From assembly GCA_028135785.1 (NCBI GenBank), contig JAOIHS010000001.1, positions 1-63,193 of the forward strand: DNA of 63,193 nucleotides, given 5' to 3'. Shown piece by piece: positions 23,163-39,317 of this stretch (positions are counted from its first letter, which is position 1; every line of letters starts with the position of its first letter). The stretch comes from SAR86 cluster bacterium (GTDB lineage Bacteria > Pseudomonadota > Gammaproteobacteria > Magnimaribacterales > AG-339-G14). The notes under the pieces were generated by a model. That model had not been told where the DNA came from. It worked only from the letters and a program-made list of their open reading frames with translations, and made no database searches. The position numbers and the translations under genes were made by a program.

Positions 23163-25061
23163 TTAAGCTATCGTTGTCTTAATTTTTTTCTTACTTAAAC
23201 TCCAGTAAATTTTAAAGATTTTTAGAAAAAATAATCTAAAGGTTCTGTCAAAAAGAGAGACTTTTGAAATTTCTGATTTAACTTCAGAAATTTGTTTTCC
23301 TCTAATTAAGTTTCCAGGAAGAATTCCAGTTGCAGTTCCGTTCTCACTGACTATATGACCTCTTTTGATAGTTGCTATATAACCTGTAGCATTTTGAACT
23401 AAACGTTTTCCTCCTAAAGGCAGATCATGAATCATTTTAGGATGACTCACATTTAAATCATCAAAATCGATGATATTAATATCAGCTAACATACCTGGTT
23501 TGATTTCACCGCGATCAAATAAGCCAAAAGTTTCAGCAGTATCTTTTGTTTGTTTTTTAACTAACATCTCAAGAGGAAATTTCTTACCAGCCTCTCGGTC
23601 TCTTGCCCAGTGAGATAAGTTTGTTGTTGGCATACTTGCATCGCAAATTAGACCACAATGTGCTCCTCCATCACTCCCACCTGCAACAGAAGACTTAAGG
23701 CCATATGCTTGTTCGACAAAATTAAGTTTATAATTTTCATACGGAGTAAAGGCTGCATAAATAAGGTTTGTACCATTATTTTTCATCATTTCGTCGTACA
23801 TTACCTCAAGTTCTGAGATCCCCTTTATTAAAGATATTGCTGCAATACTATCTTCTTTCTTAGGTTCATAATTTGGAGGAGTCCCTAAGATAAATTGAGT
23901 TTTATAATTAGCAGTAAGCTTTGTTGGAAGTTGAACATCCTTTGTAATTTCTTCTCTGGTTTTAGTATTACTTTCATCAGCGAGTTTTTTTTCTATCTCT
24001 GACTCAAAATCAGGTTCTTGACTCAATAGCATATTTTTAAAATCAGGATTCTTCATGATTTCAAATTTTTGATCAAGCGGTAAATTTGAAATCTCTTTAT
24101 AAGCAGGATATTGAACGAAAGGATTCAAAGAGCTTTCAAGACCAAACATAAGACCTACATTTCTTCCAGGAAATTGAGGGCGGATATTTTTACCTTTAAG
24201 ATAGTGTTCTTCTGCATATAAAATTGTTTTAGCTGCATCTCCGCTCGTTTGCAAAAAAGTCAAACCGCAGTCACTTTTATCGACATATTCTTTCATCCAA
24301 GACATTTCTATTTCTTCGTCTAACCAGTCTGATGTTATTTCCAAAGTACCTTCGCCAGCCTTATCTATACCAAAAGCCAGAGCTTTCATTTCTTCAGAAC
24401 TAGCTTCAGTTCCTGGAACATATTTTCCATAAATATCTCTATGCAAAATAGTTCTTGAAGTGCTGAAGCCTAAAGCACCTGCATTAATAGCTTCTGTTAC
24501 AAGCTCTGACATTTTATTAATCTCTTTGTCAGAGGCATCAACTTGGTTTTGACATCTTTCGTGACCCATCACATAGCTTCTTAATGGTCCATGACCAATC
24601 ATGAAACCTAAATCCATAACAAATTCTTTCTTATCGATTGCATCTAAAAACTCAGGGAAAGTTTCCCAGTCCCACTCAATGCCTTCATGCAGAGCGGCGC
24701 CCGGAATGTCTTCCACACCTTCCATCAATTGAATTAAAAAATTTTCATCGCCAGGTTTGACTGGTGCAAACCCAACTCCACAATTCCCCATAACGGCAGT
24801 CGTTACTCCATGCCAACTGGACGGTGTTAAGTATGGATCCCAACATACCTGGCCATCGTAATGTGTGTGAATATCGACCCATCCAGGCGTAACTAAATTA
24901 CCTTTGGCATCAATTTCCTTTTTACCTGAATTTGCTACAAACCCTACTAGTGAAATTTTTTCATCATCAATAGCAATGTCGCCAATGAACGGTTTTTTTC
25001 CAGATCCGTCTATAATTTTTCCATTTCTAATTACAAAATCATGCATATTATTATTTCTCAT
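23163..25061 (-). CDS. Amidohydrolase, N-acyl-D-amino-acid deacylase family
   Basis: A 632-residue metal-dependent hydrolase of the urease superfamily. It has the first metal motif VDIHTHYDGQVCWDP (His65, His67), GNCGVGFAPVKPGDEN, a family-specific block, and SDGGAHCGLICD with a late Asp. The C-terminal beta-sandwich has the usual DRGEIKPGMLADINIIDFDDL. It resembles D-aminoacylases and related N-acyl-D-glutamate deacylases, and could help recycle D-amino-acid derivatives. The start may be the first Met or Met6 (MHDFVIRNGKIIDGSG). It is followed downstream by the DUF3604 gene 20 bases later. Confidence 0.86.
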   Translation of the reverse strand: MRNNNMHDFVIRNGKIIDGSGKKPFIGDIAIDDEKISLVGFVANSGKKEIDAKGNLVTPGWVDIHTHYDGQVCWDPYLTPSSWHGVTTAVMGNCGVGFAPVKPGDENFLIQLMEGVEDIPGAALHEGIEWDWETFPEFLDAIDKKEFVMDLGFMIGHGPLRSYVMGHERCQNQVDASDKEINKMSELVTEAINAGALGFSTSRTILHRDIYGKYVPGTEASSEEMKALAFGIDKAGEGTLEITSDWLDEEIEMSWMKEYVDKSDCGLTFLQTSGDAAKTILYAEEHYLKGKNIRPQFPGRNVGLMFGLESSLNPFVQYPAYKEISNLPLDQKFEIMKNPDFKNMLLSQEPDFESEIEKKLADESNTKTREEITKDVQLPTKLTANYKTQFILGTPPNYEPKKEDSIAAISLIKGISELEVMYDEMMKNNGTNLIYAAFTPYENYKLNFVEQAYGLKSSVAGGSDGGAHCGLICDASMPTTNLSHWARDREAGKKFPLEMLVKKQTKDTAETFGLFDRGEIKPGMLADINIIDFDDLNVSHPKMIHDLPLGGKRLVQNATGYIATIKRGHIVSENGTATGILPGNLIRGKQISEVKSEISKVSLFDRTFRLFFLKIFKIYWSLSKKKIKTTIA

Positions 25062-26016: not shown

Positions 26017-26652
26017 CTAAAGTAGATTATAAATCACAATAAAATGCAATATTGCAGCCACAATTACCAGCAAGTGGAAAAATTCATGAAAGCCAAAGGT
26101 CTCAGGAGACAGAACCGGTAATTTAAAGCCGTAAGTTATGGCGCCAATGGAGTAAATAGTTCCTCCTGCTCCTATCAATATCAATTTTGTAAAACTCAAT
26201 GATGCAATTAATATTGGTATAAATGGTAGAGCCGCCCACCCAGCAATTAGATAAATGAATGCTCTTAAAAGCCGATGGATATTTGAAAAGAAAATAGACT
26301 GGATAATTCCAATGAGAGCTATGCTCCAGATAATTATTAATAATTTAGTTCCACTTTGTTCTTTTAAGGCTAAGAGACATATAGGAGTAAATGTCCCTGC
26401 AATCATCATAAATATAGCGCTATGATCTAGTTTTCTAAGTATTTTTTTTATCTCTATCGTTGCGTTTAGACGATGATAAAGGGCACTAAATCCAAACATT
26501 GATAACAAGCCAATTGAGTAAGTTAAAACAGCAATCAATTGCGAAGGATTACTAGTTTTAAGAATTAAGATTAAGCATGGAATAATGGAAACAAAAAACA
26601 TGAGTTGATGACTTACGCCGCGAAATCTTGGCTTGACTGTGATTTGATCCAT
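26017..26652 (-). CDS. TrhA/hemolysin III family membrane protein
   Basis: A 211-residue seven-helix membrane protein of the PAQR-related hemolysin III family. It has the family features FSALYHRL, LDHSAIFMMIAGTFTP and the C-terminal FGFHEFFHLLVIVAAILHF. The His, Asp and Ser residues that would bind zinc are in place (ALYHR, DHS, HEFFH). Bacterial members influence membrane energetics or lipid homeostasis. It has the usual length. It is five bases downstream of a short ORF that looks like a truncated sulfatase. Confidence 0.87.
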   Translation of the reverse strand: MDQITVKPRFRGVSHQLMFFVSIIPCLILILKTSNPSQLIAVLTYSIGLLSMFGFSALYHRLNATIEIKKILRKLDHSAIFMMIAGTFTPICLLALKEQSGTKLLIIIWSIALIGIIQSIFFSNIHRLLRAFIYLIAGWAALPFIPILIASLSFTKLILIGAGGTIYSIGAITYGFKLPVLSPETFGFHEFFHLLVIVAAILHFIVIYNLL

Positions 26653-26657
26653 TCGCT

Positions 26658-26840
26658 TTATTTAACTATGAGGTTCTGCGACGCCAAATTCGCCATAAAC
26701 AGAATGATATTTGGCCTTATGTTAGAGGTTGTTTGCTCATCTGATAATGAAGTAGCACTAATAACTGGCGATAGAATAATTTGACATAAAAGAATATTCA
26801 GGAAAGTACGATAGGTAGAATTATTTATATTAATTGTCAT
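26658..26840 (-). pseudogene. Truncated sulfatase-like N-terminus (60 aa)
   Basis: A 60-codon ORF with a signal-peptide-like N-terminus (LNILLCQIILSPVISAT) followed by TTSNIRPNIILFMA. The string RPNIILFMA is the standard first beta-strand of alkaline-phosphatase-fold sulfatases (xPNIxxxMADDLG), but the frame then leaves the pattern and stops 12 codons later. An alternative frame gives EFGVAEPHS and stop, so a deletion junction is likely. The ORF overlaps the end of ugd by 11 bases. It could be expressed as a short exported peptide; I favour a remnant. The start ATG is at 26840. Confidence 0.4.
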
Positions 26841-28008
26841 TAAATATATCTCTTGTAAAAATTTTTTCTTTCACATCTTCTATATCTTTTGAGTTTCTAT
26901 TTGAAACAATTATGTCTGAAATAGACTTAAATTCTTCTAATGATTGAGCAACTTTTAAGTTATTGAAAGTGCTTTCTTTTAGAGTTGGTTCGTAAATAAT
27001 TATCTCAATGTCATATTTTTGGATTTTTTTAATAATTTCTTGAATAGCTGATGAGCGAAAGTTCTTACTTCCTTGCTTCATGATTAATCTATAAAAACCT
27101 ATGATTTTTGGTTTTAGTTTTATAATTTCATCAGCCATAAATTGGATTCTAATTTCGTTTGAAGAAATAATTGATTCAATTAAGCTTTGAGGAGTTTGAT
27201 CAAAGTTAGAGAGAAGCTGCTTTGTATCTTTAGGAAGACAATAACCGCCATAACCAAAAGAAGGATTATTATAGCCATTTCCAATCCTATTATCATGACA
27301 TACGCCATTGATTATACTTTCAGAATCTAAGTCATAAGTTAGCGCATAGGAATCTAATTCATTAAAAAAAGCTACTCTCATTGCAAGGTAAGAATTAGCA
27401 AATAGTTTCACTGCCTCTGCTTCTTTAGAGCCAATAAATAAAGTTTCAATATCTTTTTTTTCTGCTCCATCTTGAAGCAATTTAGAAAACTCTTTAGCAA
27501 GCAAAGAATTACTTCCAATTATAATCCTTGAAGGGTAAAGGTTATCTTTCAAAGCTTGTCCTTCGCGCAGAAACTCAGGAGAAAAAATAATATTTTTAGT
27601 TGAAAGTTTTTTTTGCAGTAATTCGGTATGACCCACAGGAATTGTTGATTTTATAACTATAAGCGCGTCTTGATTAATATCTAAAGCTTCTTTGGTGACT
27701 GTATCAACCGAACTAGTGTCAAAAGAGTCCTTTTCAAAATCATAGTTTGTGGGAGTAGCTATAATAATAAAGTCAGCGTTTCGATATGCAATTTCTTTAT
27801 CTGTAGTTGCTGAAAGTGAAAGATTTTTTTCTTCTAAAAAAATTTCTATATCAGCATCTGCTATTGTAGATTCACGCCTATTAATTTTATCTACTTTTGA
27901 TGGGTCAATATCTAAGATCACTACATCATTATTTTGAGAAAAAAGAATAGAAAGTGACATTCCTACATATCCAGAACCTACTATAGTAACTTTTTTCTTA
28001 TTTATCAT
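26830..28008 (-). CDS. ugd: UDP-glucose 6-dehydrogenase
   Basis: It oxidises UDP-glucose twice to UDP-glucuronate with NAD+, feeding surface polysaccharide synthesis. The N-terminal Rossmann domain reads KKVTIVGSGYVGMSLSI, the central part has FIIIATPTNYD, IFSPEFLREGQAL and EAVKLFANSYLAMRVAFFNELDSY, and the catalytic Cys is in FGYGGYCLPKDTKQL. The match to E. coli Ugd extends over the whole length, including the C-terminal VYTRD-like end (IFTRDIFND). The start chosen is the Met at 28008, which gives MINKKKVTIVG. An upstream Met at 28026 would add six residues. It begins a run ugd, sulfatase stub, trhA-like and PAP2. Confidence 0.93.
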   Translation of the reverse strand: MINKKKVTIVGSGYVGMSLSILFSQNNDVVILDIDPSKVDKINRRESTIADADIEIFLEEKNLSLSATTDKEIAYRNADFIIIATPTNYDFEKDSFDTSSVDTVTKEALDINQDALIVIKSTIPVGHTELLQKKLSTKNIIFSPEFLREGQALKDNLYPSRIIIGSNSLLAKEFSKLLQDGAEKKDIETLFIGSKEAEAVKLFANSYLAMRVAFFNELDSYALTYDLDSESIINGVCHDNRIGNGYNNPSFGYGGYCLPKDTKQLLSNFDQTPQSLIESIISSNEIRIQFMADEIIKLKPKIIGFYRLIMKQGSKNFRSSAIQEIIKKIQKYDIEIIIYEPTLKESTFNNLKVAQSLEEFKSISDIIVSNRNSKDIEDVKEKIFTRDIFNDN

Positions 28009-28101
28009 AGCCTTGCCTGTGCTCATTTTTAATCAAGGTCTAAGTCAAATTATTAATGGACATAAAATTTTAGTGAGATGAAAGAATAAATATAGTCTAA
28101 G

Positions 28102-28809
28102 TCACTCTTTAACTAATGGCAAAATTTTATCGACCCAAAACACATAACCACTAAGATTAAGATGAACTCCATCATATGTGTACTCTGAACTCAAACCGCC
28201 TATAGAAGATAACTCGCCTAAGTGTAAAAATTTGATTCTTTTAGAAGTTGATAGCAAATTCAAACTATCATTAAGCAAATTTACTGACTGAACATGCCCA
28301 GAGCCACAAATGATCAGCTCACATTGAATAGTTGATTGAACTACGACTTCAATATCTGCATCAATTAAAAGATCAATAATTGCTTCATAATTTTCTAAAA
28401 CTTTAGAAATAGAGATATTACGATGGATGTCATTTATACCCATCATAATGAATGCCTTGTTAGGTTTGGTAGATAAAATTGAATCCATACGGGCTAAAAT
28501 ATCTGAAGTTTTATCACCACCTATACCTCTATTCACTACTTTTAAAGTTGGGAAAAAATCACTCCATTCACCTTCGTTTGTAATACTATCTCCAATAAAA
28601 GCTAATTCAGCATTGGGGCTGAATTTTTGAAACATAAGGATTCTTTGTTCTCCATTCCTTTCTACTCTATCAATCTTATTTAAAGCAAAAGTTTTTTTTA
28701 ATAGCTTTAATTCTTGATAAGGAAAAATCTCAAACTTTCCAACTATAAATCCATACGAAAAAAAGATAAAAGATAAGCTAACAAGAATGAAGATATTTAT
28801 TCTTTTCAT
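28102..28809 (-). CDS. SGNH/GDSL-family hydrolase, membrane-anchored or exported
   Basis: A 235-residue SGNH hydrolase. An N-terminal hydrophobic segment (INIFILVSLSFIFFSYGFIVG) is followed by block I FIGDSIT with the nucleophile Ser, block III MGINDIH and block V YDGVHLNLSGY with the catalytic Asp and His. Block II is VNRGIGGDKTSDIL. It resembles acyl-esterases that act on surface glycans. It begins 11 bases after a copy of the guaA 3' end on the same strand, so it is either the original guaA-downstream gene or cargo of the outermost inserted element. Confidence 0.84.
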   Translation of the reverse strand: MKRINIFILVSLSFIFFSYGFIVGKFEIFPYQELKLLKKTFALNKIDRVERNGEQRILMFQKFSPNAELAFIGDSITNEGEWSDFFPTLKVVNRGIGGDKTSDILARMDSILSTKPNKAFIMMGINDIHRNISISKVLENYEAIIDLLIDADIEVVVQSTIQCELIICGSGHVQSVNLLNDSLNLLSTSKRIKFLHLGELSSIGGLSSEYTYDGVHLNLSGYVFWVDKILPLVKE

Positions 28810-28819
28810 ATAATATTAA

Positions 28820-28837
28820 TTATTCCCACTCAATAAC
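28820..28837 (-). repeat. guaA 3'-end copy A (outermost)
   Basis: On the minus strand this reads GTTATTGAGTGGGAATAA, that is Val-Ile-Glu-Trp-Glu-stop, the same as the last codons of guaA apart from the first. It lies between the start of the SGNH gene and the beta-barrel gene. It marks the far edge of the guaA-linked island. Confidence 0.75.
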
Positions 28838-28881
28838 GCTCTTCATTATTTTTATTGAATAGAAGAGCATACGAAGCATCT

Positions 28882-28921
28882 AGAAACTACTTTGCTGCTA
28901 GTTTTTAGTTTCTTTTTTTTT
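28882..28921 (+). terminator. Hairpin plus T-run, orphan
   Basis: AGAAACTA at 28882-28889 pairs perfectly with TAGTTTCT at 28906-28913 across a 16-base loop, and nine T residues follow. It has the form of an intrinsic terminator for plus-strand transcription, yet no plus-strand gene lies upstream. It may be what is left of a deleted gene in the island. Confidence 0.45.
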
Positions 28922-29018
28922 AAACTTATTATTCGCATGTAAAAAAATCTTAATTAAAATCAATACTCATTGAATTAATAACTGTAGTATTCTCTTGCCC
29001 ATCTACTAAACAACTAAT

Positions 29019-29786
29019 CTAGAACGATATTCGATAGTCAATTTGATAAAGTGTTTGTTTTATATTTTTTGCTTCATAACCCCATCTAAAGCTTCTGAAA
29101 CTATCGCCTTTGCAGTCTAGATTTTCTGTCTTCACAGAAACTCCAAAACCCTCTAAGAAACCTGAATTAAAAAATACTCCACTATTAGGATTTAAACCCC
29201 AGCAAGTAATACCTGTTTCTGGACCACCCACGCCATAAGTTCCAGAATGATTTGGGTTTCCATAAGTAACTCCATTTACTTCGAATTGAGGATAATTTGT
29301 ATCTGTCATCTTTCCATCAAAATAGGATATGGTTAATCCAACATAAGGGGTTAGGTTGAGCCAAGAATTGAACCTATAACTTGGTCCCAAGTTAAGAGTT
29401 ATTCCCTTTAATTTAAATGGAGGCGCAGGATTTACAACATAGCCCCCAACCACAAAAGTCCCGCTTATAGGGTCACCTTTCCTTCTGCTGTGAGTAATAC
29501 CGGCGTTTAGATATAAATTATCATTAATTTTTCTATAATAATCTAAACTAAGCGCATGATCTTCTGTTCTTAATGTGTCATCAGTTAGTTTTACTGTTTT
29601 AACATTTTTGCCAAGATTGCCATATATCGGCGTATGCAAGCCACTAACATCTCCCATTGATCCGCTTGAAGAAACTGCAATACCAAATGAAAGTTCATTG
29701 ACTTTTTGATTAACATCCATTTCAGCGGCTGTGCTCAATGTAATTTGAAAAAGAAATAAAATAGAAATAAAGGACAGATTCTTCAT
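29019..29786 (-). CDS. Outer-membrane beta-barrel protein (porin-like, OmpW-sized)
   Basis: A 255-residue protein with a cleavable signal peptide (MKNLSFISILFLFQITLSTAAE) and alternating polar/apolar strands. Examples are LNAGITHSRRKG, GITLNLGPSYRF, LTPYVGLTISYF and the end QTLYQIDYRISF with the C-terminal Phe used by the BAM complex. Two Cys residues (ITCW, LDCKG) may form a loop disulfide. No specific family is recognised. It occupies the segment between guaA 3'-end copies A and B and starts about 130 bases after copy B. Confidence 0.65.
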   Translation of the reverse strand: MKNLSFISILFLFQITLSTAAEMDVNQKVNELSFGIAVSSSGSMGDVSGLHTPIYGNLGKNVKTVKLTDDTLRTEDHALSLDYYRKINDNLYLNAGITHSRRKGDPISGTFVVGGYVVNPAPPFKLKGITLNLGPSYRFNSWLNLTPYVGLTISYFDGKMTDTNYPQFEVNGVTYGNPNHSGTYGVGGPETGITCWGLNPNSGVFFNSGFLEGFGVSVKTENLDCKGDSFRSFRWGYEAKNIKQTLYQIDYRISF

Positions 29787-29919
29787 TATTCAGTATATGC
29801 TATTTAAAAAAATATTTTTACAATTCTTAAAAAACGACAATACATTTAAAAAAGAATTGAAACATTTTAATAATATTATGTTTTCATAGTTGTTTCTTAA
29901 AGCCTAGTCATTATTTATT

Positions 29920-29937
29920 TTACTCCCACACTGAAAG
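29920..29937 (-). repeat. guaA 3'-end copy B (degenerate)
   Basis: On the minus strand this reads CTTTCAGTGTGGGAGTAA. It aligns with the guaA end at 11 of its last 12 bases (GTGTGGGAGTAA against GAGTGGGAGTAA in other copies) and encodes Ser-Val-Trp-Glu-stop. The upstream part has diverged. I count it as a decayed copy with lower confidence than the others. Confidence 0.45.
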
Positions 29938-29960
29938 CATTTTTTAAATATATTCTTTTA

Positions 29961-30878
29961 TTATCTTTTTGTTACGTAATTTATTCCGATCAGCATATTT
30001 TTTGTAAAGGATTTAATAATAGAGGCAATATTTATTTTTCTAGTGTATTTTTTATTAGTCCTATGTTGAAGCAAGTAATAAAAAGTAGCTAAAAATAAAT
30101 GCTTTGTAAACAGTATCATTTGAAAGCTCTGCAGCAATTTCAAACAAATTAGATAGTTGTGCCTTGAGAGGCCTATAAAACCACAATGTTTATAAATATC
30201 TTTTTTAATTGTTAAGAAATAACCAATAGCCCAACTAGCTGTCAATTTAAAATTTGAAGAATGAGGAGTTCCATCATATGAGGTTTCAAGCTTGACACAT
30301 AAATCCTTTGGTACTAATTTTATTTTTTCTTTCTTTGCAACATTAAGCGTAAGTAAATCATCAGAGAAAAAGCCATCGCCATCGCTAATAAATTTAGTTT
30401 CTTTTGCTAAAGAGGATTCACAAAAAAGAGTAGCTGTATCGGCAAGGACACCTTGGTAGAGCCAGTCTGCATAGGTGCTATCTATACTCAGGAAAGGTTT
30501 CCTAATTTGGCCAGAGCACCAGCAATATGCATACCTTGTTCCGTCTTTAGTTGCCTCCACCATGTTTTCTAAAAATTCTGGAAACCAAATATCTCCAGTA
30601 TCTATAAAAGCAATATACTTACCTTGAGCAATCTTTTTCCCAGTATTTAATCTCCATAACTGACCTCTGTTCTTCTTAAAATTTAGCTTTTTTACCCTTT
30701 TATCAACTATTTTTTCGATAAGGTTCTCTGTATTATCTGTGGATGCATCATTTAAAATTAGAAGCTCAAAGTTGCCAAAATTTTGCCATAAGACACTATT
30801 AATAGATCTTAAAATCTCATTCTCGCTATTGTAAGTTGTCATTAAGACTGTTACTAAAGGATTCTTTATATTTTGCAT
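29961..30878 (-). CDS. Glycosyltransferase family 2 protein
   Basis: A 305-residue GT-A fold glycosyltransferase. The opening is PLVTVLMTTYNSENEILRSINSVL, followed by ELLILNDASTDNT with the nucleotide-sugar Asp residues, and then AFIDTGDIWFPEFL, where the usual D-x-D region is partly altered to DTGD. A basic, hydrophobic C-terminus may bind membrane. It lies in the island, just downstream of copy B's position, and is probably laterally acquired surface-glycan cargo. Donor and acceptor are unknown. Confidence 0.8.
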   Translation of the reverse strand: MQNIKNPLVTVLMTTYNSENEILRSINSVLWQNFGNFELLILNDASTDNTENLIEKIVDKRVKKLNFKKNRGQLWRLNTGKKIAQGKYIAFIDTGDIWFPEFLENMVEATKDGTRYAYCWCSGQIRKPFLSIDSTYADWLYQGVLADTATLFCESSLAKETKFISDGDGFFSDDLLTLNVAKKEKIKLVPKDLCVKLETSYDGTPHSSNFKLTASWAIGYFLTIKKDIYKHCGFIGLSRHNYLICLKLLQSFQMILFTKHLFLATFYYLLQHRTNKKYTRKINIASIIKSFTKNMLIGINYVTKR

Positions 30879-31001
30879 AATATATATTTTTTCACTACCA
30901 CTAAACAGGTTATCACTCTAAAATCCGTTTTTTATAATTTTTTCTAGGTTAGACCTAAATAGTTATTTTTTATCTAAGTGTTTGTTTTATTTCTGCTCAA
31001 T

Positions 31002-31136
31002 CTACTCTGAAGAATAAGGTTCTAAAAAAGGGTCATCTATTATATGTTCTTTCCACACAATATTGGTTTGTGCATTGATATAACCCACAAATAATGTTGT
31101 GATAATTATTGATATTATTTTTGAATATATTTTCAT
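31002..31136 (-). pseudogene. 44-codon exported fragment, VCBS/FG-GAP-like N-terminus
   Basis: On the minus strand an ATG at 31136 gives a good signal peptide (MKIYSKIISIIITTLFVGY then INA) followed by QTNIVWKEHIIDDPFLEPY and a stop. The strand IVWKEHIID resembles the opening of VCBS-repeat secreted proteins, where a similar strand precedes the first repeat. It ends abruptly, so I read it as the N-terminal stump of a deleted gene. It is divergent from the intact VCBS lipoprotein, 15 bases away. No other gene is seen in 30879-31151. Confidence 0.35.
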
Positions 31137-31151
31137 ATCAAAAGAAGCATC

Positions 31152-33467
31152 ATGAAATTGTTTAATTTATTTATTATAGTCGCATCTTTGGGATTAGGTG
31201 CATGTGCAAGTGGCGGTGGTTCTTCAGGCGCCATGTCGCAAGCTTTTACCCGAACCGACCAGCGTGTGGCATTTGACATTTGGGTAGATACATACCCTGA
31301 AGCTAACTCTTATGGTGATGTTTCAGTTACATACGATAAGACTGCTTACACTACATCAGGCTTACCTGCAAAAACAGAAAAGTATTATATTGAAGACTAT
31401 GGTTTCTTTAGGACTACTATTAATGGTTCTACTGATAGAACTGGTGGAGGCGTTGATGAAGGAACAGATGATACAAACTTTATCCAAAGTTACAATGTGA
31501 TTGAAAGCAGTATTAATGGTGACGGTCATATGGACTATTATATGTTCCATTGGGCAGGTGACCATGTTAACGACGGCTTCCTTCCTGAGAGCAAAGTGTT
31601 CGCATGGATTAATGATGGTGAAGGACATTTCACGATGGACCAGTCTGTGTTTGCAGATGGTACTCCATGTTTAATGGGTACAGGCTGTTTAAACAACGAA
31701 TCGCATACAGGTATAATTGTTACAGATTTTAATGGTGACGGAATGGATGATATATTCCAAAATCAAACTTTACTATTAAGTGATAACGGAATTTTACATA
31801 ACACCACTGGATTTGACGGTGGATTATTTGAAACATGTTTTGACGGTTGTTGGGCACATGACGCTGCTCATGGAGATGTTGATGGCAATGGTACAGTAGA
31901 TATATTTTTACCTATATGGGATAAAGATGCTGAGGAAGATAGGTGGTCAGAAGGTACTCTTCCATGGGCTATGTTGCTTAATGACGGCACTGGTAACTTC
32001 AGCGTAAACAGAAACTTCCCGGACTTAGGTGGCTCGAATGATGATAACTTTGCCACTTCGGCTGTTATTGCCGACTTTGATAATGATGGTCATGGCGATA
32101 TTGCTGTTGGTTGGCAAAAACCTTCTTCACACACTTTAGCAAATAATATTGTCAATAGTGCTGGAGCAGTTTTTTATAACGATGGCAATAATGAATGGAG
32201 AGACAGGATAGTTACTCTTCAGGCAAATTACTTTGGAGTAAACGGACTTGCTAATGATATACAAGCATTTGACTTTGACGGAGACGGTCTTATAGATATT
32301 GTGTTGGCAAGTACAAAACATGATCCTTACTATGACGGTAGGTATGTGCAATTCTTTAAAAATATGGACGGTACATCATGGACAGATGTTAGTGCTACTG
32401 CTAATCCAAGCACAAAATATATAAATGGTTTAGGCAATGGTTTTTGGAATGGCGATGGCAACATGATACTCGTAGATTTTGACCACGACGGGGATATCGA
32501 TATTGTTGACCAAGTAAGAGGTGCATACGCATTACTTAACAATGGTGATGGTACGTTTACTTTGTATGATGATTTCCCACAGTTTAGTGACAGAGACAAA
32601 ATGTTTGCCGTAGAACTAGATGGCAAATTTTGGTATGACTTTGTAGGCGCTACAGTGTCAAACATAAGTGGAAGCAGTGAAACACTAAACTTTTTCCAAG
32701 TATTAGATCCACCTAGCATGAGTGAAATGGTTCAAGACATTTCGTCGAAGCCGCAAGGGTATGCTGTAGCTGTATTTGAAAGCAAAATGTTGTTTGATAA
32801 TATTAGAAGGCAAACAAGAGGTGATGCCGTAATTGCAGAAATTAAACAAGGTAGTCAAGTAATAGGTTTTAACAAAGAACTTGGTGAAGGGTTTGGTGTG
32901 TTACTGCAAAAAGCAGAAGGCGATAACAACGGTTATGCAATTACTATAGACAAAGAAGAGAACAGATGGCACTCAGGATTTACATTTATTAATAACAAAC
33001 TACAAGCGCAGAATGAGACTATTTGGTTTGGTAGAGGTAACGCAGACTTAGAATATAATTCTGTAAGTCAATTTGTTGAATACTTACAACCTATTAATGC
33101 TAATGTATTTACTAGTGCAGGATTTGAAATAAGCCTTACAGAAGTTGATGGCTTTACCGAACAGTTCAGTGATTTCAATGTTACTGTGAATAAATTTGTA
33201 ACCAATGATGCTAAAGTATTTGCAGATATAAACTATCGTTTGCATAGCAAAATAGGACGGACATTAGTTGTTGCTGGTATTGATCATTATCAATCTATAG
33301 GAAAAAACAATATTAGATTTGCAGACATAATGACATATAATTTTGAAGATGCATTAACAGTTGGTAAGTTAAGTGCGCAACACAACTGGAACCAGTTCTA
33401 TTTTAAAGGAAACTTTAATACAGAAAGTTTAAATAGTTTTGAAGTTGGATTTAATTTACTTTTTTAA
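31152..33467 (+). CDS. Large VCBS/FG-GAP-repeat lipoprotein with beta-rich C-terminus
   Basis: A 771-residue surface lipoprotein. The signal ends LGLGAC with the lipobox Cys, followed by a Gly/Ser linker. Calcium-binding FG-GAP/VCBS repeats are seen as DFNGDGMDD, DVDGNGTVD, DFDNDGHGD, DFDGDGLID and DFDHDGDID, near residues 192, 243, 308, 374 and 443, so a propeller is likely. From about residue 540 the chain becomes alternating beta-strands and ends in FNLLF, similar to an outer-membrane barrel end. Its codon use and richer GC differ from the neighbours. It lies inside the guaA-linked island. The RBS AAGAAG precedes the ATG. Its function is unknown; surface attachment or binding is a guess. 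Confidence 0.75.
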   Translation: MKLFNLFIIVASLGLGACASGGGSSGAMSQAFTRTDQRVAFDIWVDTYPEANSYGDVSVTYDKTAYTTSGLPAKTEKYYIEDYGFFRTTINGSTDRTGGGVDEGTDDTNFIQSYNVIESSINGDGHMDYYMFHWAGDHVNDGFLPESKVFAWINDGEGHFTMDQSVFADGTPCLMGTGCLNNESHTGIIVTDFNGDGMDDIFQNQTLLLSDNGILHNTTGFDGGLFETCFDGCWAHDAAHGDVDGNGTVDIFLPIWDKDAEEDRWSEGTLPWAMLLNDGTGNFSVNRNFPDLGGSNDDNFATSAVIADFDNDGHGDIAVGWQKPSSHTLANNIVNSAGAVFYNDGNNEWRDRIVTLQANYFGVNGLANDIQAFDFDGDGLIDIVLASTKHDPYYDGRYVQFFKNMDGTSWTDVSATANPSTKYINGLGNGFWNGDGNMILVDFDHDGDIDIVDQVRGAYALLNNGDGTFTLYDDFPQFSDRDKMFAVELDGKFWYDFVGATVSNISGSSETLNFFQVLDPPSMSEMVQDISSKPQGYAVAVFESKMLFDNIRRQTRGDAVIAEIKQGSQVIGFNKELGEGFGVLLQKAEGDNNGYAITIDKEENRWHSGFTFINNKLQAQNETIWFGRGNADLEYNSVSQFVEYLQPINANVFTSAGFEISLTEVDGFTEQFSDFNVTVNKFVTNDAKVFADINYRLHSKIGRTLVVAGIDHYQSIGKNNIRFADIMTYNFEDALTVGKLSAQHNWNQFYFKGNFNTESLNSFEVGFNLLF

Positions 33468-33551
33468 AAAATCTCGATAAAGATTATCTGATACAAAAAA
33501 ATTAAAGTTTAAGATCAATTAAGAATAAAATTTTTACTATACTGGAGACTT

Positions 33552-33827
33552 ATGAAGAGACTATTGGCGCTAATATTACTATCACCTATGCTCATTGGGG
33601 AAGAGATAAAGAAAGAACGGTTGGTTTCAGAATTAACAGTAACTGAGCTTACAGAAATAGTTCGTAATATAGTTGAAGAGAGCATTGAGCAATGTGTTGT
33701 ATCTGGAACCATGAAAGGAAGGGCTAAGGTCAATTTAAAAGTAGAAGGAGAGGTAATAGCCGGAATGGAATGCGAGTTTGAGAATATAGAATCTTCAGAT
33801 CTAATTTCAGAGGAAATTAAAGATTAA
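33552..33827 (+). CDS. Small exported acidic protein (91 aa), unknown
   Basis: It has a short signal peptide (MKRLLALILLSPMLIG) then an acidic, amphipathic domain with Glu-rich segments and two Cys residues (EQCVVSG and GMECEF) that could form a disulfide. The pattern TELTEIVRNIVEESIEQC suggests a helix and KGRAKVNLKVEGEVIAGMECEFE a beta-hairpin. A GGAG ribosome site sits five bases before the ATG, and TATACT upstream could be a -10 box. No family is recognised. It is 84 bases downstream of the VCBS lipoprotein on the same strand and within the same island segment. Confidence 0.6.
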   Translation: MKRLLALILLSPMLIGEEIKKERLVSELTVTELTEIVRNIVEESIEQCVVSGTMKGRAKVNLKVEGEVIAGMECEFENIESSDLISEEIKD

Positions 33828-33874
33828 TGATGATTTGAAAGCTTCAGTTTATAACCTCTAAGGTTTCAATCACT

Positions 33875-33892
33875 CTATTCCCACTCAATAGT
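33875..33892 (-). repeat. guaA 3'-end copy C
   Basis: On the minus strand this reads ACTATTGAGTGGGAATAG, Thr-Ile-Glu-Trp-Glu-stop, differing from guaA only in using TAG. The frame continues upstream as Gly-Phe-Tyr-Lys-Tyr-Ser. A second shared box, AAAACCC on the plus strand about 14 bases away, is also present near copies D and E. It lies in the gene-free stretch 33828-34314. Confidence 0.8.
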
Positions 33893-34050
33893 ACTGTACT
33901 TATAAAACCCTTTTATATCAGTACTTTCAGGGCGATAAAATTTACTTTTTTGAAAGTTAGTTAAAACCTGTCAAAAAAGGGGTAATTTTGAACTTAGTTG
34001 AAAGAAAAATGTGCTGAAAGCCTTATTTAGAAGTCCTCTAAATCCCTAAG

Positions 34051-34068
34051 TCACTCCCACTCAATAGT
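34051..34068 (-). repeat. guaA 3'-end copy D
   Basis: On the minus strand this reads ACTATTGAGTGGGAGTGA, Thr-Ile-Glu-Trp-Glu-stop, with synonymous GAG for GAA and a TGA stop. The frame continues upstream as Val-Ser-Lys-Thr-Ala, close to the Ser-Lys-Pro-Pro-Ala of the real guaA. It is therefore a true guaA 3' end of about ten codons. The 158 bases between copies C and D hold no gene. Confidence 0.82.
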
Positions 34069-34120
34069 AGCGGTTTTTGAAACCCTTATGTAGCAACGCT
34101 TTGCGAGGGGAAAAATTGTC

Positions 34121-34207
34121 TTTACAACATTTGAGGTTTATTTCTGTGTGTCTCAATATCTTAAATTCCTTTTAATATCAGCAGTTTAGAATTTTAGTTG
34201 TTGTAAA
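34121..34207. repeat. Inverted arm-type repeats TTTACAACA
   Basis: TTTACAACA occurs at 34121-34129 and its exact reverse complement TGTTGTAAA at 34199-34207. The same nonamer recurs at the other end of this segment near copy E. The rest of 33828-34314 shows no gene, only copies C and D, these repeats and, at 34309-34320, the perfect palindrome AAGTGATCACTT overlapping the methyltransferase stop. Confidence 0.5.
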
Positions 34208-34314
34208 GTTTACAATGCCATAATTTGCTGAAACTTACTAAATATTGATGAAACAGCATCAAGCGTAGAACTATGAAAACCATGCTTACCATTTAAATTT
34301 TTATGTCTAAGTGA

Positions 34315-34956
34315 TCACTTTGTACCTTCCACAAATACAGACTCCGAACCTCTCTCAAATAGATCTAAGCCAGTTGAATTTTTAATGGTGGTTTCACCTT
34401 CAGCGCAAACTTTTATATTTTTGAGCCCTACTTCTCTGAACAAACTGCTAAGAGACTTACCATCGTACATCCATTGATGATGCCGATAGCCATTCAGAAA
34501 TAAAAATACTTTCTGCTTCAATGTGTTTATGGGTGGAGCCTCTACTAAAATAGAAGTCATAAATTCGTCAGCGTCTTCATTGATTAAGTATCTCTCTATT
34601 CCTATTTTTAGGTCTGGTATAGAAACTCGAAGCACACCATCAATCTTAAGCATTCTCTTTGCTTCATACAAAAATGATTTTGCTCCTTCGCGTGAGAGGT
34701 GCTCGAACATGTGGGATGTATATATCGCCTCAACAGAATTTGATGAAAGTGGAATACCTTTTGTAGCATCTGCATACTTAATTTTATTTTTCTTATTCCA
34801 CTCAATATTATCAATATGATTCTTATTAAGCATGCCAATTAATTTTGCTATGCGATATTTTAGTGGAGAGTTCGCGAGTTTTATTGCGGGAGTATTATCA
34901 AAATTTAACCAACCTTCCGAAGGGCTTGACCCACAACCTATATTAATTCGATCCAT
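34315..34956 (-). CDS. Class I SAM-dependent methyltransferase
   Basis: A roughly 213-residue methyltransferase. Motif I is INIGCGSSPSEGWLNFD (glycine-rich SAM loop and acidic strand end). Motif II-like AIYTSHMFEHLSREG is next, then MLKIDGVLRVSIPDL. This layout is shared with methyltransferases of surface-polysaccharide and fatty-acid clusters. The start is one of three consecutive codons (GTG 34962, ATG 34959, ATG 34956) after a strong GGAGGA; spacing favours the last. It is the sole recognisable gene in the segment between guaA 3'-end copies D and E. Confidence 0.78.
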   Translation of the reverse strand: MDRINIGCGSSPSEGWLNFDNTPAIKLANSPLKYRIAKLIGMLNKNHIDNIEWNKKNKIKYADATKGIPLSSNSVEAIYTSHMFEHLSREGAKSFLYEAKRMLKIDGVLRVSIPDLKIGIERYLINEDADEFMTSILVEAPPINTLKQKVFLFLNGYRHHQWMYDGKSLSSLFREVGLKNIKVCAEGETTIKNSTGLDLFERGSESVFVEGTK

Positions 34957-34972
34957 CATCACTCCTCCATTT

Positions 34973-35026
34973 ATACATTCCTTATTTGTTTAACTAATAC
35001 AATTATATTCGTAGTTAGGAATGTAT
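34973..35026. repeat. Inverted repeat ATACATTCCT upstream of the methyltransferase
   Basis: ATACATTCCT (34973-34982) and its perfect complement AGGAATGTAT (35017-35026) flank the 34 bases upstream of the methyltransferase ribosome site. Either a regulator site or part of the attachment region. The gene-free stretch 34957-35295 otherwise holds arm-type repeats, copy E and a tRNA fragment. Confidence 0.35.
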
Positions 35027-35087
35027 CATCTTCAAGTAAGATGTATTACATACTTGATACACTTATGAAGGGTAATAGTAGCAGAAC

Positions 35088-35147
35088 TTTACAACAATAT
35101 TTACAACAAAGACGAAGGAATGCGTCTATACAACATCTTTACAACAT
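35088..35147 (+). repeat. Cluster of TTTACAACA direct repeats
   Basis: TTTACAACA occurs at 35088-35096, 35100-35108 and 35138-35146, with ATACAACA at 35128-35135. The cluster is about 40 bases inside guaA 3'-end copy E. Repeated nonamers beside a core site resemble recombinase arm sites; the matching motif near copy D supports this. Confidence 0.5.
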
Positions 35148-35185
35148 AGGAAACAGCGTAGGAATGGGGGTTGTAGGGCGTGTTA

Positions 35186-35203
35186 TTACTCCCACTCAAT
35201 GAG
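35186..35203 (-). repeat. guaA 3'-end copy E
   Basis: On the minus strand this reads CTCATTGAGTGGGAGTAA, Leu-Ile-Glu-Trp-Glu-stop. It shares the invariant core TCCCACTCAAT (plus strand) with copies A, C, D and guaA. About 10 bases further on the plus side is TGAAACCCTT, also found beside copy D. A tRNA 3' fragment lies 29 bases away. Confidence 0.78.
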
Positions 35204-35231
35204 TAATACCCTCTGAAACCCTTGTAAATTT

Positions 35232-35270
35232 TGGGCTCGGGGGGACTCGAACCTCCGACCAACAGATTCT
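35232..35270 (-). pseudogene. tRNA 3'-end fragment
   Basis: On the minus strand GGTCGGAGGTTCGAGTCC has the form of a variable loop, T-stem and T-loop (TTCGAGT), followed by CCCC and an acceptor-like GAGCCCA. The 5' half with its D-arm is absent: upstream sequence is the 3' end of the lipoprotein gene, and the anticodon region does not pair. It is a fragment, not a working tRNA. tRNA 3' ends are classic integration targets, so this is probably carried by or left by an element. The isotype cannot be told. Confidence 0.6.
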
Positions 35271-35295
35271 TAGAACATAGATTACCTAAAAATAG

Positions 35296-37566
35296 TTAAT
35301 TAAGTTGTCGAGCAAACAAATCTCTTACTTTATTATCAGCTCCAGCAACAGGACACATCATTATCTTTCTAACATCTCCCACAGTAAAACCTATCTCTCT
35401 ATTAGATTTTCTTAGACTTCCATCCAGGAATTTTTTAAAGTCTTCATCTCCTAAGGTTGTGCTGAACAAATTAAAATAGCAACTCAAACAAGCATTATAA
35501 GCTCTCTCTAATCTTGCATTTTTTGCCTCGAGACTACCACTAAAGTAATAATTTATTATGAAAGCTCCATCATCTTCTTTCAAAATATTACATGCTTCTC
35601 CAGAAGGAGATTTTTTGAAATCAGCGAATAATTCTTTTCTTTGTTGTTTTTTCTTTCTCTTTGCTTCCTCTTTCTTTCTTTCTTCTAAATCTGCATATAA
35701 CGATAAATCTGTTTGTATTTTTACTGCAAGTTTTGCTAAAGGTGAATAAGCATTGGTATTTTGAGAAACGTATATTGAAACGTTGCCTTCTAAGCATTGT
35801 TTAAATTGTGAAACCGCAAAGTTATCAGACACTGATTCGTTAGCTAAAATTAACCGGCCTCTGGCAACTCTATCTACATACGTTTCAGTTATTGTTGGTA
35901 TTTCATTTTTAACAGTGCCAAGCAAATCAAGTGCTTCTTTAGCCTCCCTGCCTCTATAACAATTTTGTAAGCTTGATAAATCATAATAATGCTCAAGATA
36001 CCTATTAAGTGCCACTTCAGAATCAATAAGTGGATTCTTTTTTTCGTAAGCTTCTCGTCTTATTCCTTTTCGAACTCCATCTTCATAGACAGTGTAAGTT
36101 TGCAAATAATTCATTGAACTTGTTATAAGTTCTCTTTGCATCTCTCCAACATCGCTATTAAATTCCTTTGGTAAACTTTGCCAAGTTATAAAATCAGACG
36201 TATCGAATACTTCAGGTGCACAATCTTGACTGTTATAGCCGCGTCTCCATTGCTTATCTTGAGGATAAAACAAATTGCTATCTGCGCATTTACTAATGTC
36301 ATAAAATTTTGCATTAGGAGAGAAAGATCCAAAGTCAAGAAGCTCTTTGTATACTTCTGATATATGCTTTTCTAAGTACTCTTGGTCCCCAACTGCAAGA
36401 GCATATCTTTGGTCTTTTTCTCTGTTTGTTGAGTAGTTTATATTTTCATAATCTGTTGGTTTCTCAAGCGCATATTTTGCAATTAAATATAAAGAATTAT
36501 TAGGAAGATAAGATTTCTCAAAATCTTTAACCCCGAATTGGTCAAATTTAGAATCCATACCAAAACAATAATCAGCAATCATTGGTATTTTTCCATCTTT
36601 GACTTCCAAGCCATCGCATAAAAAAGCATTGTTTATGGGATCGCCGGAAGCATCCATTCCAACTATCAATCCATTGAGCGAATCAATAGTAGTATTTTTA
36701 AAACTTAAAATAGGGGTAATACTGTTTATAGTTGTATTATTTCTACTCTGTACAGATAAATTTAAGAAAGTAAAATTTTTAAAACTAGAGTTTTGTGTTT
36801 CTAGAGATAAATTTAAAACACAATTCTCCCAATTTGGACTGCTATAGCATTCATCAGTAAATCTACCTTCATGACTATTTTTTAGAACAAAGTCTTCTAT
36901 ATCTGAATTAGAGATTTTCAAAGAGATTATAGCTTGCTCATCTTGTTCAATAAGCACTTCTATTTTTCCTGTTACATTGTCGAGTGTAAGATATGACGCA
37001 GCTACATTTTCCCCAAATTTTAAGTTTTCTAAAGACGAATCAATAATTTTAAAATTATCTAAAAGCGCAACGTCATCTGGCCTGAATTTAGCTCCTTCAA
37101 AAGAAACGTTTTTGAACTTACTATTTTTAAAAGTTACATTCTTAATTGTTATTGCACTAATAACCAAGTCCTCAAGAGTAACATTTTCATAAATACATTC
37201 TTCTTCACACAATAAATCATTTGCTTCGATAGTGTTCTTGTTAAAATCTTTAACAACAAAAATTTCGCCGTCTAAATAATTTATTCTTTGTGAAATTTTG
37301 TTATTTAAAAAAATTTCATCCGCAATCAAGTCACCACTTTCTGAGAAATAAGCTTTTTTGATTGTTTTTCCATCTTCGAAAGAAATTGTATTTTTTATAA
37401 CGGTCCCTTCATTATAGTAATCTGAAGCTATGCCGGAGAATAGATTGCCATCTTTATAAGCCAATCCATTTTCAAAATTTATATCTTGAAGGTTAGAATC
37501 GCTTGAACAACTAATTATAAAAATTAACAAAAATGAATTTATTAAAAATATCTTTATTTTATTCAT
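35296..37566 (-). CDS. Large lipoprotein with MORN-like and pentapeptide-like repeats
   Basis: A roughly 756-residue lipoprotein. The start is placed at ATG 37566, since MNKIKIFLINSFLLIFIISC then gives a standard lipoprotein signal; an upstream Met at 37605 would add a charged 13-residue lead. Early repeats (DGNLFSGIASDYYNEGTVIK, AYFSESGDLIADEIFLNN) are like the YwqK/MORN antitoxin-like repeats. Next, NVTFKNSKFKNVSFEGAKF resembles pentapeptide repeats. A Lys/Glu-rich helix (EERKKEEAKRKKKQQRKE) precedes a Cys-containing C-terminal domain. No function is recognised. It is the first gene after guaA in the island and probably laterally acquired. Confidence 0.72.
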   Translation of the reverse strand: MNKIKIFLINSFLLIFIISCSSDSNLQDINFENGLAYKDGNLFSGIASDYYNEGTVIKNTISFEDGKTIKKAYFSESGDLIADEIFLNNKISQRINYLDGEIFVVKDFNKNTIEANDLLCEEECIYENVTLEDLVISAITIKNVTFKNSKFKNVSFEGAKFRPDDVALLDNFKIIDSSLENLKFGENVAASYLTLDNVTGKIEVLIEQDEQAIISLKISNSDIEDFVLKNSHEGRFTDECYSSPNWENCVLNLSLETQNSSFKNFTFLNLSVQSRNNTTINSITPILSFKNTTIDSLNGLIVGMDASGDPINNAFLCDGLEVKDGKIPMIADYCFGMDSKFDQFGVKDFEKSYLPNNSLYLIAKYALEKPTDYENINYSTNREKDQRYALAVGDQEYLEKHISEVYKELLDFGSFSPNAKFYDISKCADSNLFYPQDKQWRRGYNSQDCAPEVFDTSDFITWQSLPKEFNSDVGEMQRELITSSMNYLQTYTVYEDGVRKGIRREAYEKKNPLIDSEVALNRYLEHYYDLSSLQNCYRGREAKEALDLLGTVKNEIPTITETYVDRVARGRLILANESVSDNFAVSQFKQCLEGNVSIYVSQNTNAYSPLAKLAVKIQTDLSLYADLEERKKEEAKRKKKQQRKELFADFKKSPSGEACNILKEDDGAFIINYYFSGSLEAKNARLERAYNACLSCYFNLFSTTLGDEDFKKFLDGSLRKSNREIGFTVGDVRKIMMCPVAGADNKVRDLFARQLN

Positions 37567-37630
37567 TAGATTATCTCTCTTATTTTGTCTTTTTCTTCTT
37601 ACCATACCTTTATGTTTTTTAGTAAGTGAC

Positions 37631-37724
37631 CAAACTTTGCGCTAAAGTTTGTATCTACAGAACAAAAATACTATAAGAATAAGGATATTGTCAAAAGTTT
37701 GTATTAAGTTTGTATCTGTAGAAT
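37631..37724. repeat. AAGTTTGTAT repeats and hairpin beside guaA
   Basis: AAGTTTGTAT occurs at 37645-37654, 37695-37704 and 37706-37715. Two copies extend to the related blocks GTATCTACAGAA and GTATCTGTAGAA. In addition CAAACTTT (37631-37638) pairs perfectly with AAAGTTTG (37644-37651). They lie 30 to 125 bases from the guaA stop and may be arm sites of the most recent recombinase, distinct from the TTTACAACA type. Confidence 0.45.
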
Positions 37725-37754
37725 CTTTATTTTTAGTGGTTTCAGAGCCACCCT

Positions 37755-37772
37755 TTATTCCCACTCAATAGT
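37755..37772 (-). repeat. guaA 3' end (site F), parent of the repeat family
   Basis: The functional guaA gene ends ACTATTGAGTGGGAATAA (Thr-Ile-Glu-Trp-Glu-stop). The core TCCCACTCAAT on the plus strand is the invariant part of five sites in this window. In other bacteria the guaA 3' end is a known integration hotspot for genomic islands. Confidence 0.85.
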
Positions 37773-39317
37773 GGCTGGTGGTTTGCTAGAAATATCATAG
37801 ACAACTCTTGAAACTTGCGGTATTTCATTGATGATTCGATCCGATAATAAATTTAAAAATTCATGATCAAGCTTGGCTGCATTAGCAGTCATAAAATCTG
37901 TTGTTTCAGCAGCTCTTAAAGCAATAACGTATTCATACCTTCTGGCATCTCCAACTACGCCAACACTTTTAATAGGCAAGAAAACTGCAAAAGCTTGGCT
38001 TACTTTGTCATAGAGATTGTGACTGTTTAATTCTTCCATAAAAATAAAATCAGCTGCTCTCAATATTTCTAGTCTTTCTTTTTTTATTTCTCCGAGAGTT
38101 CTTACAGCTAAACCTGGTCCTGGAAAAGGATGTCTGTTAATTAAATAATCTGGCAGACCAAGTTCTTTCCCTATTTTTCTGACCTCATCTTTAAACAAAG
38201 AAGTTAATGGTTCAACTAAAGGTAATTTCAAATAAGATGGCAAGCCACCAACATTATGATGAGATTTTATAATGTGCGCTTTGCCGTTTTTAATACCCGA
38301 AGATTCAATGACATCTGGATAAATTGTGCCTTGAGCCAAGAATGAAATATTTTTTAGTTTTTTGGTTTCTTTCAAGAAGACATCAATAAAAGTTTTGCCA
38401 ATTATTTTTCTTTTCTTCTCGGGATCAGACTCCCCTTTTAAATTCTTAAGAAATAACTTCTCGCTATCTGAAAAATTTATATTTAGTTTCAACCCTCGTT
38501 TTAGATCTTTTTTAACTTGTTCGGCTTCGCCTTTTCTGAGCAGACCATTATCCACAAAAATACATTCTAAGTTTTTGCCTATTGCTTTTGAAAGCAAGGC
38601 TGCCACTACCGATGAATCGACTCCACCTGAGATTCCTAATAATACTTTCTTATCTCCAACTTGAGACTTAATATCTTGGATTAATGAATCAACAATATTT
38701 TTGGGTCGCCATTTTCCACTACACCCACAAATATCTTTAACAAAAGTTTTTAAGATTTTCTGACCCTGATTGGTGTGCGTTACTTCAGGATGAAATTGAA
38801 AACCATATTTTTTTAATTTTATATTTTCAAAAGCAGCAATTGCGCTATTGTTAGAAGAACCTATTTTTTTAAAACCTTTTGGCAAATTAGTAACTTTATC
38901 GCCATGACTCATCCAGACATTTAAATCTTTAGTTTTTGTTGAAAGGCCAGAAAAGATTAACCCTTTATTAACTTTAAGAACTGCATTACCAAATTCTCTT
39001 TTATCAGAAGAACTAACGATGCCGCCAAAATGCTTTGCCATAGTTTGCATGCCGTAACAAATACCAAGAACAGGGATATTACTGTCCAGCAGTTTTGGAT
39101 CAAATTTAAGTGCTTTTTTAGTATTAACTGACTCTGGTCCCCCAGACATGATTACTCCAGAGGCATTCATTTCTATAATTCGTTTTAGAGATGTTTCGTG
39201 GGGTAAGATTTCGGAGTAAACTCCCGCTTCCCTTATGCGACGAGCAATGAGTTGGGTGTATTGCGAGCCAAAGTCGAGAATAATTATTTTTTCAGATGTT
39301 ATTCCAGCTTTCACCAA
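37755..39317 (-). CDS. guaA: GMP synthase (glutamine-hydrolysing)
   Basis: It converts XMP to GMP using ATP and glutamine, in the last step of GMP synthesis. The amidotransferase domain has [15 protein letters not shown] with the nucleophile Cys, and HPEVTHT with the His-x-Glu. The ATP pyrophosphatase domain has the P-loop [15 protein letters not shown]. The C-terminal dimer domain ends [13 protein letters not shown]. The 520 residues match the usual 525. It starts one base after the guaB stop, so guaB-guaA is an operon. Its last codons are the repeated attachment-like site of the downstream island. Confidence 0.97.

Follow-up and report, generated by a model that had tools for sequence, protein, structure and literature searches.

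Why does the 3′ end of guaA, the gene for GMP synthase, recur several times in the DNA downstream of it, and what could have placed the copies there? The question is posed by a stretch of 63,193 nucleotides (nt) from a SAR86 cluster bacterium (assembly GCA_028135785.1, contig JAOIHS010000001.1, positions 1 to 63,193 of the forward strand), here called the window; the assembly holds 946,968 bases and is 64.9% complete. Our answer, to which we assign a probability of about 0.82, is that the guaA 3′ end is an attachment (att) site at which units lacking an integrase have integrated serially, probably moved in trans by rare integrases. Within this answer, the serial and site-specific capture of units at guaA has good support.

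The guaA 3′ end is ATTGAGTGGGARTRR, and four extra copies lie downstream of the gene on the same strand, with none elsewhere in the assembly. The exact sequence ATHGARTGGGARTRR is found five times, always on the guaA strand: at 28820, 33875, 34051, 35186 and the guaA end, 37755 (span 28820-37769). A preliminary description of this DNA had given the four downstream copies the orientation of the guaA end, which is correct, and had named copies equally common at random genome positions as evidence against its reading; outside 28820-37769 the assembly has none. The shorter TCCCACTCAAT was found exactly at 24670, 28824, 33879, 34055, 35190 and 37759, all on the plus strand of the window. With one mismatch permitted there are seven window matches (shuffles: mean 1.01, largest 4, 0 of 100 reaching 7), and the whole assembly has six on one strand and none on the other, the reversed control giving 0. 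The match at 24670 lies within an open reading frame (ORF) at 23163-25061, where it is read as GIEWDWE, and the same coding stretch is present in a relative (L006). At 29920 the core is altered and, by eye, has no clear arm repeats. The stack of six once proposed is really four extra copies plus guaA, 24670 being a coding coincidence and 29920 undecided. In the window, guaA has a restored 3′ end, which is repeated in direct orientation at the far end.

Relatives supply the empty sites. Among 40 genomes of the family, the window's included, 36 had a core match; one region was taken from each of the other 35, and the 33 of these that contained guaA make, with the window, 34 loci. A further exact copy follows on the same strand in 16 of the 34, and hand curation of altered copies with arm-like flanks adds 7 more loci (23/34). 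Within 11 kb downstream of guaA there were 27 forward matches (1-2 mismatches, some plainly coding) vs 4 reverse ones (0-2 mismatches). Across the SAR86 order, a core match was found in 167 of 203 genomes, with two or more on one strand in 78 (hand count). In one relative (L022) the guaA stop runs directly into sequence that lies after the distal copy in two others, 2,702 nt later in L030 and 3,644 nt later in L027; L032 and L034 are likewise the empty counterparts of L035, which rejoins after 4,294 nt. This comparison of guaA downstream regions, proposed in the preliminary description, finds empty and filled sites joining at the core. Together with the shared units described below, which also end there, it bears out two of that description's claims, that the segments are units with ends at the core and that serial integration restored guaA each time. 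Groups of core copies without a recognised guaA alongside were seen in two loci (L050 and L046); in L050, a longer guaA-like tail precedes the first copy, an arrangement suggestive of a displaced array.

The features of the window array are as follows.

37755..39317, minus strand: guaA, the target gene (ORF; compared with the guaA loci of 33 family relatives)
37755-37769, minus strand: core ATTGAGTGGGAATAA, the last 15 nt of guaA (ORF comparison)
35186..37754, minus strand: unit 1 (WIN.1), 2,569 nt, with P′ arm, a protein of 769 amino acids (aa), tRNA-Met 3′ fragment and distal end
37695..37716, minus strand: unit 1 P′ arm repeats GATACAAACTTAATACAAACTT, of the G001 integrase-element type (sequence; 12/12 match)
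35296-37605: ORF of the 769-aa protein, with a lipoprotein-like start by eye and a weak pentapeptide-repeat match, below the Pfam cut-off only
35232..35253, minus strand: fragment like the 3′ end of tRNA-Met(CAT), within unit 1, immediately ahead of the distal end
35186-35200: unit 1 core copy
34051..35185, minus strand: unit 2 (WIN.2), 1,135 nt, with P′ arm, leader, methyltransferase gene and P arm
34967..35185, minus strand: 219-nt stretch of unit 2 matching the G166 integrase element, in its P′ arm and leader, at 96.3%
35126..35147, minus strand: unit 2 P′ arm repeats ATGTTGTAAAGATGTTGTATAG
34315-34962: unit 2 methyltransferase gene
34051-34065: unit 2 core copy
33875..34050, minus strand: unit 3 (WIN.3), 176 nt, arm regions only, AACTAAGTTCAA being of the G008 integrase-element type
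33875-33889: unit 3 core copy
28820..33874, minus strand: unit 4 (WIN.4), 5,055 nt (ORFs, domains, comparison)
33552-33827, plus strand: unit 4 91-aa protein
31152-33467, plus strand: unit 4 FG-GAP protein
29961-30878, minus strand: unit 4 glycosyltransferase
29019-29786, minus strand: unit 4 255-aa protein
28820-28834: unit 4 core copy

We delimited 102 such units (118-5,493 nt, median 1,183.5) in 65 of 78 guaA loci across the order, a sample that gives no estimate of occupancy because loci outside family f1 were picked for two or more matches. Whole units recur in distant relatives. For example, unit 1 of the window is 98.0% identical over 2,562 nt (97.6% globally) to L049.1, a unit in a genome of a different SAR86 family (G072), and the identity stops at the core; the guaA proteins of the two loci are 58.6% identical, and the flanks of the unit are 65% identical on the guaA side and 28% downstream (for unrelated 200-mers the mean is 19% and the range 2-56%, n=53). 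A 571-nt unit is 99.7-99.8% identical across f2g8, f2g10 and f3g21, and in f1g2, f1g3, f1g4 and f2g12 units of differing length share its first 451-595 nt at 95.6-100%. A 1,001-nt unit is common to f1g3 and f1g4 (98.6-99.0%), where its array positions differ, and further pairs are L016.1/L030.2 (98.6%), L001.4/L020.3 (93.8% over 806 nt) and L005.1/L089.1 (93.6% over 1,290 nt). In the nine pairs tested, identity outside the unit was within the unrelated range, save upstream where both sequences are guaA.

The best of the other explanations is classical accretion of cis-mobilizable elements (CIMEs) and nothing more, that is, decayed islands that became fixed once their integrase was lost and have since passed on by vertical descent or homologous recombination. 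Tandem and generally decayed elements with kept att sites are an outcome that PMC5704250 describes; many distal copies and arms in SAR86 are eroded, and a guaA-type integrase was found neither in the window's assembly nor in most genomes. Units 1-3 themselves retain core copies and arm regions with no recombinase among their ORFs, which is the CIME state of both att sites without integration or transfer genes. However, vertical inheritance or homologous exchange fits poorly with integrase-less whole units that are 98-99.8% identical between SAR86 families up to the core. Cross-family pairs with more than 97% identity agree in only 65-70% of the 200 nt of guaA that precede the core, so exchange via guaA homology would be unlikely. 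We therefore regard accretion alone as an improbable account. Far less probable still is that the shared units are artefacts of assembly or contamination: the named records are draft single amplified or metagenome-assembled genomes, but the arrays lie inside long contigs, for example of 836,712 (G072, the partner of unit 1), 1,591,815 (G176) and 679,916 bases (G034), with diverged guaA beside them and from several projects. Chance clustering of a short coding motif with no tie to mobility can be dismissed, for although the core is short and one of the six 11-mers is coding, five exact 15-mers lie on one strand within 9 kb, relatives are alike, and junctions, shared units and repeats would all have to be accidental.

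The ends of the 93 units of at least 450 nt were scored for direct repeats in which 8 or 9 positions of 9 match and the period is 10-12. About 25-125 nt before the core, the distal end has such a repeat in 60 of the 93 units, 59 of them at period 11, compared with 11 of 279 mid-unit controls; proximal ends have one in 34 of 93, at mixed periods. These 11-nt distal repeats look like integrase arm sites. Fourteen units were picked because both of their ends have strong repeats, and in these P′ agrees with the P of its own unit at 10.64 of 11 positions vs 9.26 for the P of others; none of 5000 permutations was as good, and the own P ranked first or tied in 11 of the 14. By sequence, the distal ends form ten clusters; the majority are common to different cargo, and the largest comprises 24 units with 20 cargo families from 8 genera. 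Where distal ends are similar, the cargo differs in 275 of 302 pairs (0 of 23 control pairs similar at mid-unit); for similar proximal ends the figure is 56 of 96. An inverted repeat beside the core scores on average 8.22 (n=102) vs 6.82 at mid-unit (n=77; p 7e-7), with scores of at least 9 in 32/102 and 10/77, and we claim no function for it because only a minority of units carry the excess.

The integrases themselves are rare. None was found in the window, as had been noted earlier; its assembly, 65% complete, has one partial PF00589 match, at a contig edge away from guaA, and no integrase was found in it next to an att site. A profile of three integrases was run against 202 SAR86 genomes, of which 31 passed the threshold, and full-length matches were confined to G166, G001 and G008, the others passing weakly. 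In these three the integrase lies directly behind guaA, next to an att site. Matches to PF00589 in family f1 are mostly of ~300 aa, which by size we take to be XerC/XerD; the others are those of G008 (contig C31) and G001 (C12), one in G017 (C14), and partial matches at contig edges. The arm types of units 1, 2 and 3 of the window are those of the G001, G166 and G008 integrase elements, respectively. Unit 2 goes further: its first 219 nt align with the G166 element with 212 identities, 5 mismatches and 3 gaps, the match ends at the integrase ATG, and a methyltransferase follows. It resembles an integrase element in which another gene has taken the place of the integrase gene, and suggests how integrase-less units arise. 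In the G001 and G008 elements a serine resolvase gene overlaps the integrase gene, and we rejected it as the mover: PF00239 occurs in 6 of 202 genomes, namely in these two elements and four others. A phage origin was likewise rejected, as scans of viral contigs for the integrases and arm motifs found no close relatives and one remote integrase relative at 25% identity. A different integrase element, with a 461-aa integrase, lies at 6956-10462 of L036 (G017:C14); its 211-aa protein resembles one in the G001 guaA element. The G008 element encodes a 156-aa protein (L007, 3554-4021) with an HxH-type motif, THCHC, seen by eye and no Pfam match, possibly a replication or nicking protein.

On the proposed mechanism, the SAR86 guaA 3′ end would be the attachment site for a family of tyrosine-integrase elements, with crossover probably inside GAGTGGGA. 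Each integration would give guaA a new stop codon and push the earlier occupant downstream, the old guaA end being left as a boundary between units. Most occupants would be non-autonomous, with an attP-like end (11-nt direct repeats, spacer, core), often one cargo gene and no integrase, which rare autonomous elements with matching arm repeats at the same site would supply in trans. Trans action is proposed because the arms match, integrases are rare and integrase-less units moved recently. The sequences show that units end at the core, occur near-identical across genera and families, have matching arms when two-armed, and reuse their ends with different cargo; the crossover point, excision, trans action, transfer vehicle and expression by read-through from guaA are what we infer. 

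The model also changes how the old guaA ends should be read. The preliminary description saw Ile-Glu-Trp-Glu-stop in the clear copies, with GAA or GAG and TAA, TAG or TGA, and this is right for the window; in 15 of 40 family-f1 distal copies it is not read, a fraction that depends on curation because all 15 are boundaries added by hand as degenerate. From the synonymous differences it had argued that every copy is more than a recombination core and represents a formerly functional guaA 3′ end of a relative. As stated this is not supported, and the argument is half right: on the integration model the stop-codon side was a working guaA end, of the same lineage, until the next integration; the other side would be attP. 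The triplet left of GAGTGGGA in family-f1 distal copies is ATT, ATG, ACT, TTT, AGT or TTC, and such variation is expected if that side derives from the incoming element. Ser-Lys-Thr-Ala at 34051, taken earlier as extended guaA homology, lies within the unit's own arm region and is not read so here, because related units differ in sequence there.

Several observations weigh against serial capture moved in trans. The first ~40 nt after the core (37711-37754) differ between unit 1 and its partner L049.1, the rest being 98% identical, a difference that would fit an exchange of the proximal end; simple integration offers no explanation for this. Clear repeats are lacking at 33 of 93 distal ends and at 59 of the 93 proximal ones; a good many units may therefore be dead or one-way, and 3 of the 14 two-armed units match the P of another unit better. 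Several arm types have no assigned integrase because integrases are so rare in the sample, and this sequence analysis observed no circle, excision or trans action. Cargo ORFs run with guaA in 123 cases and against it in 33, a ratio too near the 307 to 114 beyond the arrays for strand bias to count as proof of read-through, and we rejected it as such. Finally, comparable copy pairs are present in other Gammaproteobacteria. There, 23 of 138 genomes have at least two same-strand matches (hand count), at least 11 of them within 12 kb, compared with 78 of 203 in SAR86, figures that include matches away from guaA and come from genomes of differing size and base composition. We therefore rejected the idea that arrays are exclusive to SAR86. 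Small guaA arrays may exist elsewhere, since several of these genomes have close pairs; in G254, G282 and G318, two same-strand matches lie 0.9-1.4 kb apart.

What the units carry is diverse. An ORF of 70 aa was found in 98 units, in 69 cargo families; the four without one are of 118, 119, 176 and 338 nt, the 176-nt one being unit 3 of the window. A forward ORF starts within 60 nt of the core in 40 of 102 units and within 15 nt in 21. Cargo scans covered 106 of 123 non-redundant proteins, and the results given are the 25 families listed per database. Among those from Pfam (25 of 105) are FkbM methyltransferases (5), MORN repeats (4), GNAT acetyltransferases (3), HNH and acyltransferases, and among those from PADLOC (25 of 129) components named type I and II restriction-modification, with mads_2 in 4. 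The PHROGs families listed (25 of 74) comprise integrases, an invertase, methyltransferases, endonucleases, acetyltransferases, an O-antigen acetylase and unknowns, with no structural or packaging family among them.

How far is this known already? Tandem accretion and the guaA hotspot are. GIsul2 is an integrase island at the guaA 3′ end whose att-bounded inner CR2-sul2 unit is excised and integrated via the island's integrase, as outlined in PMC9376610. It shares with SAR86 the target, a tyrosine integrase and an att-bounded unit, but its unit sits in an integrase-bearing island with resistance genes, whereas SAR86 has many different units, often of one gene, arrayed in genomes that yielded no such integrase. 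Integrative mobilizable elements (IMEs) at guaA are tabulated as Tyr, and CIME accretion is described, in PMC5704250. Accretion of CIMEs, or of IMEs and integrative conjugative elements, is alike in stacking elements without integration genes, att sites kept, at one gene end; CIMEs are described there as decayed, whereas SAR86 units are small, combine many cargo families with few end types, and recur near-identical in different families. In Dehalococcoides, tandem islands are bounded by direct repeats of the ssrA 3′ end, and only some islands carry the integration module (PMC3146451). Both cases have the 3′ end of one gene directly repeated many times, but those islands have a serine recombinase, a six-gene module and one genus, unlike the tyrosine-integrase relatives, arm-like repeats and several families of an order seen here. 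PMC13310844, a paper about Stenotrophomonas islands, mentions guaA many times, and PMC12416821 makes no mention of SAR86 in the part of its text covered. In the open-access literature without preprints (titles and abstract starts), we found no paper on guaA arrays in SAR86. The cassette-like form and the cross-family exchange look new.

Integron gene cassettes share one insertion point, serial capture, often a single gene with one recombination end, and a recombinase acting in trans. The SAR86 units have the same outline, with the trans recombinase inferred, but their ends are arm-like repeats with a guaA core and their insertion point is a housekeeping gene. IntI and attC were not identified in the arrays, no attC-model or IntI-specific search having been made; the arm repeats and guaA-side integrases point to a system other than an integron. 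A survey of guaA islands was reportedly published in 2012. Gene trading at guaA resembles both tandem islands and integrons and is built differently. At its widest, the idea is that SAR86 has an order-wide, integron-like pool of non-autonomous cassettes captured at guaA via phage-type att ends and set in motion in trans by integrases that visit rarely and have several arm specificities; arms, leader and distal end would form a conserved chassis into which cargo is swapped, once exactly at the integrase start codon. We hold the chances of this to be about even. SAR86 are among the commonest bacteria of the surface ocean. If true, streamlined plankton would have a concrete, testable route of gene flow, gaining restriction-modification, surface-modification and other genes in small units, and ordinary island integrases, not integrons, would produce cassette-like behaviour. 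Natural intermediates are at hand in the integrase elements, the integrase-replaced unit and the 118-176-nt units with little beyond att ends. The group had resisted culture, according to PMC3569297.

Some features of the window remain. Searches with Rfam gave nothing at gathering scores in the window, and no tRNA gene was found at 35232..35253. The tRNA-Met fragment there stands in place of the distal arms of unit 1, has two mismatches vs the host tRNA-Met and is present too in the 98% identical unit of G072. As this fragment, within a unit and common to L049.1, is the sole tRNA trace, a tRNA-targeted island was rejected. Unit 4 has weak or no arm repeats and is possibly several merged units. 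Similarity of the window to the relative L006 resumes only at ~26638, and the intervening DNA is probably further island sequence:

26640..28819, strand not assigned: probable further island sequence, with a GDSL hydrolase (28102-28809) and a UDP-sugar dehydrogenase (26830-28026)

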